A DNA stretch of 64,000 nucleotides from Streptomyces sp. NBC_01283 (GTDB lineage Bacteria > Actinomycetota > Actinomycetes > Streptomycetales > Streptomycetaceae): assembly GCF_041435335.1 (NCBI RefSeq), contig NZ_CP108430.1, positions 8,466,001-8,530,000 of the forward strand, read 5' to 3'. A program made the position numbers and the translations under genes. Position 1 is the stretch's first letter, and each line of letters starts with the position of its first letter. The notes beneath the pieces were generated by a model, which saw only the letters and a list, made by a program, of their open reading frames with translations, was not told where the DNA came from and ran no database searches. Shown piece after piece: positions 1,201 to 48,351 of the stretch.

Positions 1201-2256
1201 ATGGTCGTCGTGATGGCCCCCGAGGCCACCCAGCAGGACGTGGACGCGGTCGTCGAACTGGTGCGGGCGGCGGGCGGTGACGCGTTCGTCAGCCGTGGCG
1301 TGACCCGCACCATCGTCGGCCTGGTGGGAGACGTCGAGGCGTTCGATGCCCTCAATCTGTCCAACCGCCGCGGTGTCCTGGACGTCGTACGGATCTCGGT
1401 GCCCTACAAACTGGTCAGCCGGGAGCACCACCCCGACCGGTCCGTGATCAGGGTCGGCGGCGTGCCCATCGGACCGGACACCCTGACCGTGATCGCGGGA
1501 CCGTGCGCGGTGGAGAGCCCCGAACAGACCCTGGCCGCCGCGCACATGGCCAAGGCGGCGGGTGCCGCGCTGCTGCGCGGCGGGGCGTTCAAACCGCGCA
1601 CCTCCCCGTACGCCTACCAGGGTCTCGGCGAAAGGGGGCTGCGGATACTCGCCGACGTCAGGGACGAGACGGGACTCCCGGTCGTCACCGAGGTCATCGA
1701 CCCGGCCAGCGTCGAACTGGTCGCCCCCTACGCGGACATGCTGCAGGTCGGCACCCGCAACATGCACAACTTCGCGCTCCTGCAGGCGGTCGGCGCGGCC
1801 GGGCGTCCCGTTCTGCTCAAGCGCGGATTCGGCGCCACGATCGAGGAGTGGCTGATGGCCGCGGAGTACATCGCGCAGCGGGGCAACCTCGACATCGTGC
1901 TCTGCGAGCGCGGCATCCGTACCTTCGAGACCGCCACCCGCAACACCCTGGACATCAGCGCCGTGCCGGTCGTCCAGCGCCTCTCACACCTGCCGGTGAT
2001 CGTGGACCCCTCGCACTCGGGCGGCCGCCGGGACCTCGTCGTCCCCCTCACCCGGGCCGCCCTCGCCGTCGGCGCCGACGGCGTCATGATCGACGTACAT
2101 CCCGACCCCAAGACGGCGCTCTGCGACGGGAATCAGGCCGTCACCCGGGCGGAGATCGGCGAGCTCGCGAACATCGCCCAGGTCATGTCGCCGCTGATGG
2201 GCCGCACGCTCACACAGCCGGCGGCGGCCGCCGGGGTCGGTTCCGGCGCCCGCTAG
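1201..2256 (+). CDS. 3-deoxy-7-phosphoheptulonate (DAHP) synthase, AroF type with N-terminal ACT-like region
   Basis: Condenses phosphoenolpyruvate and erythrose 4-phosphate, the first step of the shikimate pathway, and so feeds tyrosine, 4-hydroxyphenylpyruvate and tryptophan. The 351-residue protein has a short regulatory-type N-terminal region (AGGDAFVSRGVTRTIVGLVGD) followed by the barrel with family blocks AGPCAVES, LLRGGAFKPRTSPY, MLQVGTRNMHNF, LKRGFGATIEEW and IVDPSHSGG. The start is the ATG preceded by GGGAGGA (1188-1194); the frame also extends upstream to a TTG at 1090, but that lacks a good ribosome site. Its position next to the regulator and the Hpg genes indicates a cluster-dedicated copy raising aromatic flux, as in other glycopeptide clusters. 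The family call is firm; dedication to the cluster is inferred from location. Confidence 0.93.
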   Translation: MVVVMAPEATQQDVDAVVELVRAAGGDAFVSRGVTRTIVGLVGDVEAFDALNLSNRRGVLDVVRISVPYKLVSREHHPDRSVIRVGGVPIGPDTLTVIAGPCAVESPEQTLAAAHMAKAAGAALLRGGAFKPRTSPYAYQGLGERGLRILADVRDETGLPVVTEVIDPASVELVAPYADMLQVGTRNMHNFALLQAVGAAGRPVLLKRGFGATIEEWLMAAEYIAQRGNLDIVLCERGIRTFETATRNTLDISAVPVVQRLSHLPVIVDPSHSGGRRDLVVPLTRAALAVGADGVMIDVHPDPKTALCDGNQAVTRAEIGELANIAQVMSPLMGRTLTQPAAAAGVGSGAR

Positions 2257-2349
2257 GGGTGAATAGGGGTTCCCGGCCCTAGATCCATTCTGCTAGTGAG
2301 GGGTACCAGGCCGATAAGCGCGTTGTTAGGGTGAGCGTGGTTCGGCCAG

Positions 2350-2388
2350 CGGGATTTCGTTCCACCTCAGGAACGGAGCGGAATCCCG
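2350..2388. other. Two-part imperfect hairpin
   Basis: Outer arms CGGGATT (2350-2356) and AATCCCG (2382-2388) and inner arms CGTTCC (2358-2363) and GGAACG (2370-2375) are perfectly complementary, with a six-base loop and an asymmetric bulge on the right. It could be an operator or an RNA element in the leader. There is no T-run. Confidence 0.5.
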
Positions 2389-2456
2389 ACGGAGGGGAAG
2401 TGGCGCCGAGTGCGGGTGTAATTCTGCGATGCGACGAGAGATGTGCGGCTCGGGCT

Positions 2457-45937: not shown

Positions 45938-46120
45938 CGGAGTCCTCGTGGGAAGAAGAATGTGGATTCCTGGCTCGCGACGCGCCGGTCGCGGAATGCC
46001 GGAACAGCATTAGGCGCGAGGCGGGAATTCTCTTTGCGGACCCGATGGTACGACCGCCTTCGCGGTTCTCGCACCTGTCAAGCCATTGCTGTGGATCTGT
46101 TGTCAGGAGACGCTGAAGTG
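45938..46120. promoter_or_regulatory. Divergent promoter region hmaS / hpgT
   Basis: The 183-bp gap must hold promoters for hmaS-hmO to the left and hpgT-pdh to the right. It contains an inverted repeat CGCGAC/GTCGCG with a 6-bp spacer (45976-45993). I looked for a GTCCAA-N17-TTGGAC operator and did not find one. Confidence 0.55.
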
Positions 46121-47452
46121 ATGGAAATCCTGCAAACCGAAATCGCCGTCGCGGAGTTGAACGCGGCCACGCTGCACGCGTCGCTCGCCGATGTGTCGAT
46201 GGAGTCCATGAACCTCCTCAACCAGATCGCCGACACCTATCCGGACGCGGTCTCGTTCGCGGCCGGGCGCCCCTATGAGGGCTTCTACGACGTGACCCAG
46301 ATCCACGAACACCTCCGGGTCTTCTGCGACCATCTGCGCACCCGGCTCGGCCTGAGCGAGGCGGAGACCGCACGCATGCTGTTCCAGTACGGCGCGACGA
46401 AGGGGATCATCGGCGACCTCGTGGCGCGCGGTCTCGCCGTGGACGAGGGCATCGACGCCGACCCCTCGTCCGTGGTCGTCACGGTCGGCTGCCAGGAGGC
46501 GATGTTCCTGCTGCTGCGCGCGCTGCGCGCCGACGACCGCGATGCCGTGCTCGCCCCCAGCCCCACCTATGTCGGCCTGACGGGGGCCGCGTTGCTCGCC
46601 GACATGCCCGTGCTGCCGGTGCGCACCGGTGCGCACGGCATCGACCTCGACGACCTGCTGGTCCAGCTGCACCGGGCCCGCGCCGCCGGACAGCGGGTCC
46701 GCGCCTGTTACGTGACGCCCGACTTCGCCAATCCGGTGGGCGTCAGTCTGCCGCTCGCCGACCGGCAGCGGCTCCTGGACATCGCCGCCGCCGAGGACCT
46801 GCTGCTCCTGGAGGACAACGCGTACGGAATCCTGAGCGGCGCCGCCGACCGGCCGCCCACGCTGAAGGCGCTCGACCGGCACCAACGCGTCGTCTACTTG
46901 GGCTCGTTCGCCAAGACCGTCATGCCGGGCGCCCGCGTCGGCTACGTGGTCGCCGACCAGCGGGTGACCGGCCGCGGCGGTGGTGACGTACTGCTCGCCG
47001 ATGAGCTGTCGAAGCTCAAGAGCATGCTCACCGTGAACACCTCGCCGATCGCCCAGGCGGTGATCGGCGGCAAACTCCTCGCCCACGACTGCAGCCTCGT
47101 TGCCGCCAACCAGCAGGAGACGGACGTCTACCGGCGCAATCTGCGACAGGTCCTCGACGGCCTCGACCGGCGGCTCGGGAGCCGCCCCGACGTCACCTGG
47201 AACGTGCCGACGGGAGGCTTCTTCATCGTGCTCACCGTGCCGTTCACCGTCGACGACTCCCTCCTGGAGTACGCGGCGCGCCGCCACGGCGTGCTGTTCA
47301 CGCCCATGCACCACTTCTACGGCGCGACGGCCGGGTTCCGCCAACTCCGGCTCGCGATCAGCACGTTGACGTACGAGCGGATCGAGCAGGGCCTCGACGG
47401 GCTCGCCGCGCTGATCCGTGAGCGCCTGGACGGGGATGGTGAGGTCGCGTGA
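46121..47452 (+). CDS. hpgT: 4-hydroxyphenylglycine aminotransferase
   Basis: A fold-type I PLP aminotransferase that makes L-Hpg from 4-hydroxyphenylglyoxylate, using tyrosine as amino donor and so regenerating 4-hydroxyphenylpyruvate for hmaS. The 443-residue protein has the PLP lysine in SFAKT (Lys265), the substrate arginine region near the C-terminus and family blocks YVTPDFANPVGVSL and LLLEDNAYGIL. The ATG at 46121 has AGGAGA (46105-46110) upstream; a GTG directly before it and longer upstream frames are less likely. The gene overlaps prephenate dehydrogenase by GTGA. The N-terminal sequence MEILQTEIAVAELN is as I recall for glycopeptide HpgT proteins. Confidence 0.94.
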   Translation: MEILQTEIAVAELNAATLHASLADVSMESMNLLNQIADTYPDAVSFAAGRPYEGFYDVTQIHEHLRVFCDHLRTRLGLSEAETARMLFQYGATKGIIGDLVARGLAVDEGIDADPSSVVVTVGCQEAMFLLLRALRADDRDAVLAPSPTYVGLTGAALLADMPVLPVRTGAHGIDLDDLLVQLHRARAAGQRVRACYVTPDFANPVGVSLPLADRQRLLDIAAAEDLLLLEDNAYGILSGAADRPPTLKALDRHQRVVYLGSFAKTVMPGARVGYVVADQRVTGRGGGDVLLADELSKLKSMLTVNTSPIAQAVIGGKLLAHDCSLVAANQQETDVYRRNLRQVLDGLDRRLGSRPDVTWNVPTGGFFIVLTVPFTVDDSLLEYAARRHGVLFTPMHHFYGATAGFRQLRLAISTLTYERIEQGLDGLAALIRERLDGDGEVA

Positions 47453-48351
47453 CGATCCGCACCATGGCCGTCGTCGGCACCGGCCTGATCGGCACCTCGG
47501 TGGCCCTCGCGGCCCGTCTGCGCGGCGTGAGCGTGTACCTCTCCGACCGTGACGAGTCCGCTCTCCACGCCGCCGCGGTGCTCGGCGCCGGACGGCCCGA
47601 GCCCCCGCAGGGCCCCGTGGACCTGGCCGTCCTCGCGGTGCCGCCCAGCCAGATCGCCCCCGTCCTGGCCGAACTCCAGTCGCGTGGGCTCGCGTTGAGC
47701 TACACCGACGTGGCGAGCGTCAAGGCTCTCGCCGAGCGGGAGATCCTGGACACCGCCCCCGAGCCGTCCCGCTACATCGGCGGCCACCCGTTGGCGGGCC
47801 GCGAGCGGTCGGGTCCTCTCGCCGCCCGCGCGGAGCTGTTCCGGGACCGTCCCTGGGTGCTCACCCCGACCCGCCTCACCTCCCGGGCCGCCTTCGGCCG
47901 CGCCCTGGAACTGATCGCGCTGTGCGGAGCGGTGCCCCGCGTGATGCGGGCCCGCGCCCACGACGACGCGGTGGCGCTGACCTCCCACGCACCCCACTTG
48001 GTGGCCAGCCTGATGGCGGCCCGCCTGGGTGATGGGCCCCCGGAGGCCGCACATCTCGCGGGGCAGGGGCTGCGCGACACGACCCGGATCGCCCGCGGTG
48101 ACTCCCGGCTGTGGAGCGACATCGTCGAGTCCAATGCGGCGGCGGTCGCCGACATCCTCACCCGGCTCCAGGAGGATCTCTCCAGCGTCGTCGCCGCCCT
48201 GTACGACCTCGCCGACCGGGAGCGGGGGCGGGAACTGTCGGGCAAGAGCAGGCACACCCTGGTGGACCTCCTCGACCGCGGTGCCGCCGGGGTGGGGGAA
48301 CTGGACGAGCCTCGACCGCCTGGACAGCCCGCCCCTTGCCCTCCGCGGTGA
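47449..48351 (+). CDS. Prephenate dehydrogenase
   Basis: Oxidatively decarboxylates prephenate to 4-hydroxyphenylpyruvate, the substrate of HmaS and precursor of tyrosine. The 300-residue TyrA-type protein has an N-terminal NAD(P)-binding GTGLIGTS, then YIGGHPLAGRERSG and the helical C-terminal dimerisation domain. Coupled to hpgT by a GTGA overlap, so the cluster supplies Hpg and Tyr from prephenate by its own enzymes. It has no ACT domain, so no tyrosine feedback domain is visible. Such pdh genes are standard in glycopeptide clusters. It is the last gene I would assign to the cluster on this side. Confidence 0.93.
   Translation: MTIRTMAVVGTGLIGTSVALAARLRGVSVYLSDRDESALHAAAVLGAGRPEPPQGPVDLAVLAVPPSQIAPVLAELQSRGLALSYTDVASVKALAEREILDTAPEPSRYIGGHPLAGRERSGPLAARAELFRDRPWVLTPTRLTSRAAFGRALELIALCGAVPRVMRARAHDDAVALTSHAPHLVASLMAARLGDGPPEAAHLAGQGLRDTTRIARGDSRLWSDIVESNAAAVADILTRLQEDLSSVVAALYDLADRERGRELSGKSRHTLVDLLDRGAAGVGELDEPRPPGQPAPCPPR

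Follow-up and report, generated by a model that had tools for sequence, protein, structure and literature searches.

The window analysed here is the whole stretch G000:C1:8466001-8530000, 64,000 nt of the 9.59 Mb genome of Streptomyces sp. NBC_01283. It carries a single continuous biosynthetic cluster, with genes mainly on the + strand, which includes four nonribosomal peptide synthetase (NRPS) genes, a halogenase and two cytochromes P450. Genes were identified by Pfam and NCBIfam scans of the window proteins and by PDB matches, and all listed cluster genes are open frames. We consider it highly probable that the cluster is complete, belongs to the glycopeptide-related type V (complestatin-like) kind and specifies a des-N-methyl, probably 6-epi, complestatin congener; type V membership is well supported. 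What is new is that complestatin's amino acid order occurs here in another clade, together with a coupled change at residue 6.

Assembly line and cluster genes

The NRPS genes, all on the + strand, encode seven adenylation (A), six condensation (C) and five epimerization (E) domains, one X domain, an A-domain remnant and one thioesterase (TE). With T denoting thiolation domains, the domain order is A-T, C-A-T-E / C-A-T-E / C-A-T-E, C-A-T-E, C-A-T-E / C-A-T-X-(A remnant)-TE. The first-pass annotation, made from the letters of this stretch, had described seven modules on four genes, an X domain, one halogenase and two Oxy-type P450s; all of these were found, together with the TE. In the following list, residues in brackets, among them 4-hydroxyphenylglycine (Hpg), are as read from the pocket codes.

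6014..12556, + strand: NRPS-A, module 1 A-T (Hpg) and module 2 C-A-T-E (Trp)
12553..17196, + strand: NRPS-B, module 3 C-A-T-E (Hpg), E3 motif HHLAVDA
17297..31252, + strand: NRPS-C, modules 4 and 5 C-A-T-E (Hpg, Hpg) and module 6 C-A-T-E (Tyr)
29735..31249, + strand: E domain of module 6 (E6), motifs HHLAVDG, IEGHGR, RTMGWFT, FNYLG
~31308..37814, + strand: NRPS-D, module 7 C-A-T (Hpg), X (HRIAADE), degenerate A, TE (GWSIG)
34440..35843, + strand: X domain, P450-recruiting, inactive, condensation-like; HRxxxDE motif, on the LCL side of the C-domain tree
35844..37019, + strand: remnant of a degenerate A domain separating X from TE; precedent described for complestatin (PMC1894796)
39370..40953, + strand: FAD-dependent halogenase (Trp_halogenase); nearest solved structure 3e1t, 588.6 bits
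41018..42190, + strand: P450a, OxyA/OxyE-like, heme loop LGHGIHYC
~42190..43415 (start approximate), + strand: P450b, OxyB-like, 502.7 bits to OxyB 4tx3

Some of the relatives come from 80 loci with exchanger matches. Of these, L008-L019 (12 loci) were compared, with L020-L087 (35-42% exchanger matches) outside the comparison; L015-L018 gave no X domain or P450a match within the stretches searched. G133 has no Tyr module in its stretch, and G001, G184 and G050 contributed only their P450s. By identical coordinates, G288 is S. zingiberis, G048 is S. rimosus, G337 is CB02923 and G049 is S. cyaneochromogenes.

The nine-residue pocket codes of modules 1-7 are DVFHLGLLC, DVSAVGEVA, DVYHLGMLC, DVFHLGLLC, DVYHLGMLC, DASTVAAVC and DAFHLGMLC. 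With the Hpg and other residue labels that we assume for such codes, they read Hpg-Trp-Hpg-Hpg-Hpg-Tyr-Hpg, the heptapeptide of the first-pass annotation, and identify as Trp the aromatic residue that it had left as a query at position 2. That annotation had named non-Hpg calls in most modules as a sign against itself; five of the seven codes are of Hpg type. It had also proposed Hpg as the only phenylglycine, and no pocket for 3,5-dihydroxyphenylglycine (Dpg) is found among the seven modules. The window's Trp2 code is identical to the Trp4 code of a cluster with GP6738 order (G047), whose Hpg and Tyr modules read DIYHLGLLC and DASTVAAVC. The residue order of GP6738 is reported with NMR (PMC7567792), and all three labels are thus anchored by codes that match the window's types.

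An additional NRPS gene outside the window, another sign the annotation had named, was looked for in the whole genome. Of its 46 C-family matches, 12 fall inside the window and the remaining 34 lie at distances of at least ~0.78 Mb, so that no C-bearing module is missing nearby (a stray module without C domain is invisible to this search). The two ends of G000:C1 (~0.03-0.14 and 9.28-9.39 Mb) show mirror-image sets of NRPS matches with the same scores, the pattern expected if a linear chromosome carries long terminal inverted repeats.

Three exact repeats of 95, 146 and 80 bases, almost adjoining one another, are common to E3 and E4 (window 16492-16814 and 21182-21504) and suggest that gene conversion took place recently between the two modules, 3 and 4; the E3 motif lies upstream of this repeat stretch. 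That motif reads HHLAVDA, not HHxxxDG, which would fit a silent or defective cluster without product, and GP6738 is described as silent in its native hosts (PMC7567792). We regard this as very improbable: the listed genes are open frames, E5 of G049 and G207 likewise reads HHLAVDA, and the ratio of nonsynonymous to synonymous substitution rates (dN/dS) against relatives is well below 1 for C, A, E, X and TE domains (simple Nei-Gojobori values from one to fifteen pairs; E3 of G207 is split, with 306 codons). As a possible novelty, the A-domain remnant that precedes the TE was set aside, since it recurs in relatives and is published for complestatin (PMC1894796).

The remaining genes of the cluster are as follows.

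2..1093, + strand: VanS-like sensor histidine kinase (Pfam HisKA/HATPase_c/HAMP), whose start lies ~200 bases to the left of the window
L006 19041-19802, directly upstream of the window: response regulator partnering the histidine kinase
1090..2256, + strand: DAHP synthase, aromatic precursor supply (Pfam DAHP_synth_1; NCBIfam PRK08673 above cut-off)
2603..3625, + strand: StrR-like (ParB-like) pathway regulator, from its own sequence; 49-75% identical copies in the loci of five relatives
3876..5990, + strand: ABC exporter (ABC_membrane and ABC_tran); relatives' copies 57-84%
37811..38038, + strand: MbtH-like protein (Pfam MbtH)
38039..39325, + strand: Na/H exchanger family protein (family match; copies in relatives)
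43744..44844, - strand: hydroxymandelate oxidase (Hmo), FMN-dependent (FMN_dh)
44831..45937, - strand: hydroxymandelate synthase (HmaS), HPPD family (TIGR01263 above cut-off; HmaS over HPPD from cluster context alone)
45962..47452, + strand: Hpg aminotransferase (HpgT; Aminotran_1_2; 64-80% copies in G351, G036, G049, G207, G212)
47449..48351, + strand: prephenate dehydrogenase (pdh; PDH_N/PDH_C)
48447..49049, + strand: conserved protein, no Pfam match; 54-66% copies beside relatives' export genes
49007..52436, + strand: peptidoglycan-binding-domain protein, ABC ATPase and MacB/FtsX permease (putative export/immunity)

The first-pass inventory of hmaS, hmO, hpgT, pdh, DAHP synthase, StrR-type regulator and exporter stands as named, but MbtH, the Na/H exchanger and the module 6 E domain had been left out of its list of parts. 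Its boundaries (1201..48351) have to be widened, from the two-component pair on the left to ~52.4 kb on the right, and the DAHP synthase starts at 1090, not 1201. The histidine kinase and response regulator belong to the cluster; kinase copies 49-75% identical occur in G351, G049, G196, G047 and G207, the 75% copy lying to the left of StrR in G351. The 2603-3625 protein had no match in Pfam, NCBIfam or PDB, and its StrR likeness is our assumption. Copies 56-75% identical were found in four of six other full-length clusters (G351, G036, G049, G207), with one at 49% in L015 and none in the G196 or G047 stretches. The 49007-52436 export set is present in six relatives (G351, G049, G047, G207, G101, G212) and was not found in the G036 and G196 stretches.

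The window proteins scanned gave no match to a glycosyltransferase, as annotated earlier, nor to van genes. Peptidase_M15 (PF01427), to which we take VanX/VanY-like enzymes to belong, is represented by two loci at a great distance from the cluster (G000:C1:7647992-7648657 and 8764986-8765435). A two-component pair without van genes is described as a type V trait (PMC8698665).

The tyrosine module and the configuration of residue 6

In the Pfam scan, module 6 (window:27854-29734) matched AMP-binding, AMP-binding_C and PP-binding only, with no methyltransferase, and the E domain that follows looks intact. The absence of an N-methyltransferase together with this E domain leads us to predict unmethylated D-Tyr at position 6, a prediction that we hold to be moderately likely. 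It is in line with the earlier suggestion that the product may differ from complestatin in methylation and stereochemistry.

In all six clusters of S. rimosus or S. cyaneochromogenes type, the A domain of module 6 contains an insert of about the size of a methyltransferase. Pfam detects the methyltransferase domain in L012 (S. rimosus) and L014 (S. cyaneochromogenes); the other four probably carry one too, judging from the similar size of the insert. HHxxxDG is kept in E6 of all nine insert-free loci (that of S. zingiberis being partial) and in none of the six insert-bearing ones, which read HHLVVDE or HELVVDE. Correspondingly, EGHGR is found in eight of the nine (the ninth, S. zingiberis, is cut by a contig end) and in none of the six. 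The fourth motif of E6 in G212 is RTTGWFT. Against E domains in the PDB, the window E6 scores 169.5 bits with PvdL and 110.7 with TycA (2xhg), the S. rimosus E6 only 70.1 and 41.6. When the window is compared with G351, the dN/dS of E6 (0.34) falls inside the span of E2-E5 (0.31-0.43); E6 exceeds every other E domain in both insert-bearing groups (0.46 vs 0.26-0.35 and 0.44 vs 0.23-0.34). Mean dN/dS in the S. rimosus group is 0.45 for E6 and 0.22 for C7, and over six members of the window's clade 0.31 and 0.27.

An intact E6 as a trait unique to the window or to a few lineages was considered and rejected, as the same state is found in Tyr modules of clusters with GP6738 order, with corbomycin order and others. 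In eight further clusters, the Tyr modules (code DAS..AVC) have HHxxxDG in 11/12 and EGHGR in 12/12 cases, the exception being HHLVADV in G247; the methyltransferase model, which does match G049, had no match in these 12 modules. Three of these eight clusters (G093, G247 and G014; L170-L175) have a corbomycin-like order as far as readable, the first modules of G014 lying outside its stretch (for the corbomycin order, see PMC7567792). An E domain is present in all six of their Tyr modules, five with HHxxxDG and one, in G247, with HHLVADV. Among the clusters examined, the exception is thus the S. rimosus/S. cyaneochromogenes type and not the window.

The literature frames the question as follows. 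Known glycopeptides are described as D-D-L-D-D-L-L, and the E domain of complestatin module 6 as corrupt; all glycopeptide C domains are D-accepting-like, from which an ancestor with active E domains was postulated (Rausch et al. 2007, PMC1894796). Modern glycopeptide antibiotic (GPA) lines are described as having no E domain in module 6 (Schoppet et al., PMC6333238). In our C-domain tree (all trees are printed without support values), C2-C7 of the clusters lie on one D-accepting-like branch, even where E6 is dead, and X lies on the LCL-like branch.

An ordinary complestatin producer, with E6 silent or bypassed and L-Tyr6, would differ from complestatin by the missing N-methyl group only. This fits the pocket-code order, which is the same as in G049 and G207, the published configuration of known glycopeptides, and the ancestry of C7, which is the same where E6 is dead. 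We nevertheless consider it rather unlikely, because the window E6 retains its catalytic motifs and a constraint like that on E2-E5, in contrast to the decayed E6 of insert-bearing clusters.

Several points weigh against D-Tyr6. The reading draws on motifs and constraint, not on chemistry, and intact motifs are no proof of activity. Position 6 is given as L in the known GPAs (PMC1894796, PMC6333238), and teicoplanin C7 is reported to take both D- and L-Tyr hexapeptides (PMC6333238). The position of C2-C7 on the D-accepting branch even with a dead E6 means that C7 ancestry cannot settle the configuration. Over six clade members (15 pairs), E6 is somewhat less constrained than C7 (mean dN/dS 0.31 and 0.27), as also in the three closest pairs among S. 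bicolor, Streptomyces sp. cf386 and Streptomyces sp. HD (0.28-0.38 vs 0.18-0.26), and the E6 of HD has an extra low-complexity stretch. The insert-bearing clusters group by C7 and by P450b, not by P450a, so the association of methylation with E6 decay may reflect a single event. Finally, G049 and G207 are taken as complestatin-type, complestatin itself being compared by description only.

Retaining D-Tyr6, we tentatively suggest, at slightly less than even chances, that the window represents the ancestral state postulated by Rausch et al., in which a live E6 feeds a truly D-accepting C7. The chain would then be all-D up to residue 6 with the aryl-ether ring on D-Tyr6, and L-Tyr6 of complestatin would have arisen through gain of the N-methyltransferase and decay of E6. 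An apparently working E6 in such clusters makes the old puzzle of GPA stereochemistry testable. Discussion of this clade or of its Tyr stereochemistry may already exist in the rimomycin/misaugamycin paper (ACS Cent Sci 2022) or in the paper of 2001 on the cluster for complestatin.

Predicted product and P450 clade

Gene content, module order and pocket codes are read from the DNA itself, and the chemistry described here is predicted from them. Modules 1-7 would assemble Hpg-Trp-Hpg-Hpg-Hpg-Tyr-Hpg, with unmethylated D-Tyr as residue 6, while the halogenase would chlorinate carrier-bound residues. The X domain would recruit the two P450s, of which the OxyB-like one would form the aryl-ether link between residues 4 and 6; the other link would be the Trp2-Hpg4 biaryl. 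After release by the TE, the unglycosylated bicyclic peptide would be exported by the ABC proteins and, by analogy with other type V compounds, which act through peptidoglycan binding, may block autolysins. The sequence does not reveal the N-terminal cap or the degree of chlorination. For the peptide with two crosslinks, the computed [M+H]+ is 1109.368 without chlorine, with 33.961 added per chlorine and a keto form 1.032 lower; the hexachloro keto form comes to 1312.102. The scaffold with keto cap, six chlorines and one CH2 equals the formula that we assume for complestatin. A feglymycin-like linear product was dropped, P450s and an X domain being present (feglymycin is described as uncrosslinked, PMC8698665).

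The window P450s lie on OxyA-like and OxyB-like branches with those of other clusters, in a tree without support values that does not include the ComI/ComJ sequences. P450a matches two PDB entries about equally, 3oo3 (357 bits), presumably OxyE, and 7ttb (346 bits). The latter was deposited with the kistamicin OxyA paper (PMC9023744). In the P450a tree, the window groups with G212, G001, G351, S. zingiberis, S. bicolor, cf386 and HD; clusters of the S. rimosus and S. cyaneochromogenes types are placed elsewhere. P450a is 72-85% identical to those of the seven nearest clusters and 55-60% to complestatin/rimomycin-type P450s; copies with at least 70% identity occur in 5 of 392 genus genomes sampled, its own included. 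The likeness to complestatin claimed in the first-pass annotation thus stands for residue order and type V family, with order, two P450s and X domain upheld, but by P450 identity and tree the nearest relatives form another clade. The heme loop of P450a starts with Leu in place of Phe (LGHG for FGHG) in 8/8 clade members and also in G163 of the set; this might shift heme chemistry.

A kistamicin-like product with three rings would need one bifunctional P450, similar to kistamicin OxyC, and kistamicin is indeed described as having three crosslinks made by two Oxy enzymes (PMC6565677). We consider this improbable for the window, which has no Dpg pocket and departs from the kistamicin described there in having a complete A domain in module 1 and an E domain in module 4. 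Outside its own clade, P450b is nearest to those of G047, G184, G050 and G196 (70-72%; G047 71%), and the order of G047 is that of GP6738, a product described with two links (PMC7567792).

The two-link congener remains our preferred reading, and from the eight clusters of the clade we expect congeners of complestatin that differ from it at a single residue. No assigned product for this group came up in the literature (no species-by-species search was made). Type V compounds are of interest because they are described as unaffected by D-Ala-D-Lac resistance (PMC7567792).

Comparison with known systems

Residue 2 of types I-IV is, as we assume, Tyr or β-hydroxytyrosine (Bht); that of the window is Trp. 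These lipid II binders are described without an E domain in module 6 (PMC6333238), which the window has. With type V, the window shares the lack of glycosyltransferase and van matches among the scanned proteins and the presence of kinase and response regulator, as set out in PMC8698665. The Trp-central Hpg link by which type V is defined in PMC7567792 fits the pockets for Trp2 and the Hpg-type module 4, from which the link is predicted. The inactivated X motif HRIAADE fits the HRxxxDE of kistamicin and teicoplanin X domains (PMC6565677), a feature common to other GPA types. Kistamicin as described there has Dpg residues, lacks the A core of module 1 and has no E domain in module 4, none of which applies to the window.

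G047, taken as GP6738-like from its module order only, shares with the window the Trp pocket code, an OxyB-like P450 (71%) and an insert-free Tyr module whose E motifs are intact; no halogenase match was found in its 60 kb. GP6738 has nine modules with Dpg and Val, the window seven modules and no Dpg pocket.

The clusters of S. rimosus and its kin, which we link to rimomycin from the species name, have the same heptapeptide order, and their exchanger, halogenase, P450s and Hpg genes are arranged as in the window. They differ by a degenerate E domain in module 1 (3/3 fully fetched clusters), a starter C domain (2/3), and the module 6 methyltransferase (shown in L012) with a dead E domain, none of which is present in the window.

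S. bicolor, cf386, HD and G351 have the module 6 type of the window, with P450a 74-77% and halogenase 84-87% identical. In these clade mates, a stand-alone AMP-ligase-like gene follows the P450s (Pfam-confirmed in cf386; by similarity only in G351, S. bicolor L019 and HD L010), cf386 (L008 15401-18597) adds carrier protein, ferredoxin, phosphosulfolactate-synthase-like (PF02679) and VOC genes, and G351 has a starter C domain before module 1. None of the clade mates' extra genes lies between P450b and Hmo of the window (a gap of ~330 bases). They may signal an unusual acyl group at the N terminus, of which the window gives no sign.

Complestatin/chloropeptin has, with the residue order that we take to be Hpg-Trp-Hpg-Hpg-Hpg-Tyr-Hpg (found also in G049/G207), the X domain with A remnant, the two P450s and the halogenase in common with the window. 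It presumably has an N-methyltransferase in module 6, to judge from N-methyl-Tyr, which the window lacks; the P450s of the complestatin-type clusters G049 and G207 are 55-60% identical to those of the window. Complestatin is described with a corrupt E6 (PMC1894796), the window has an intact-looking one, and the product thus probably differs from complestatin at residue 6 exactly.

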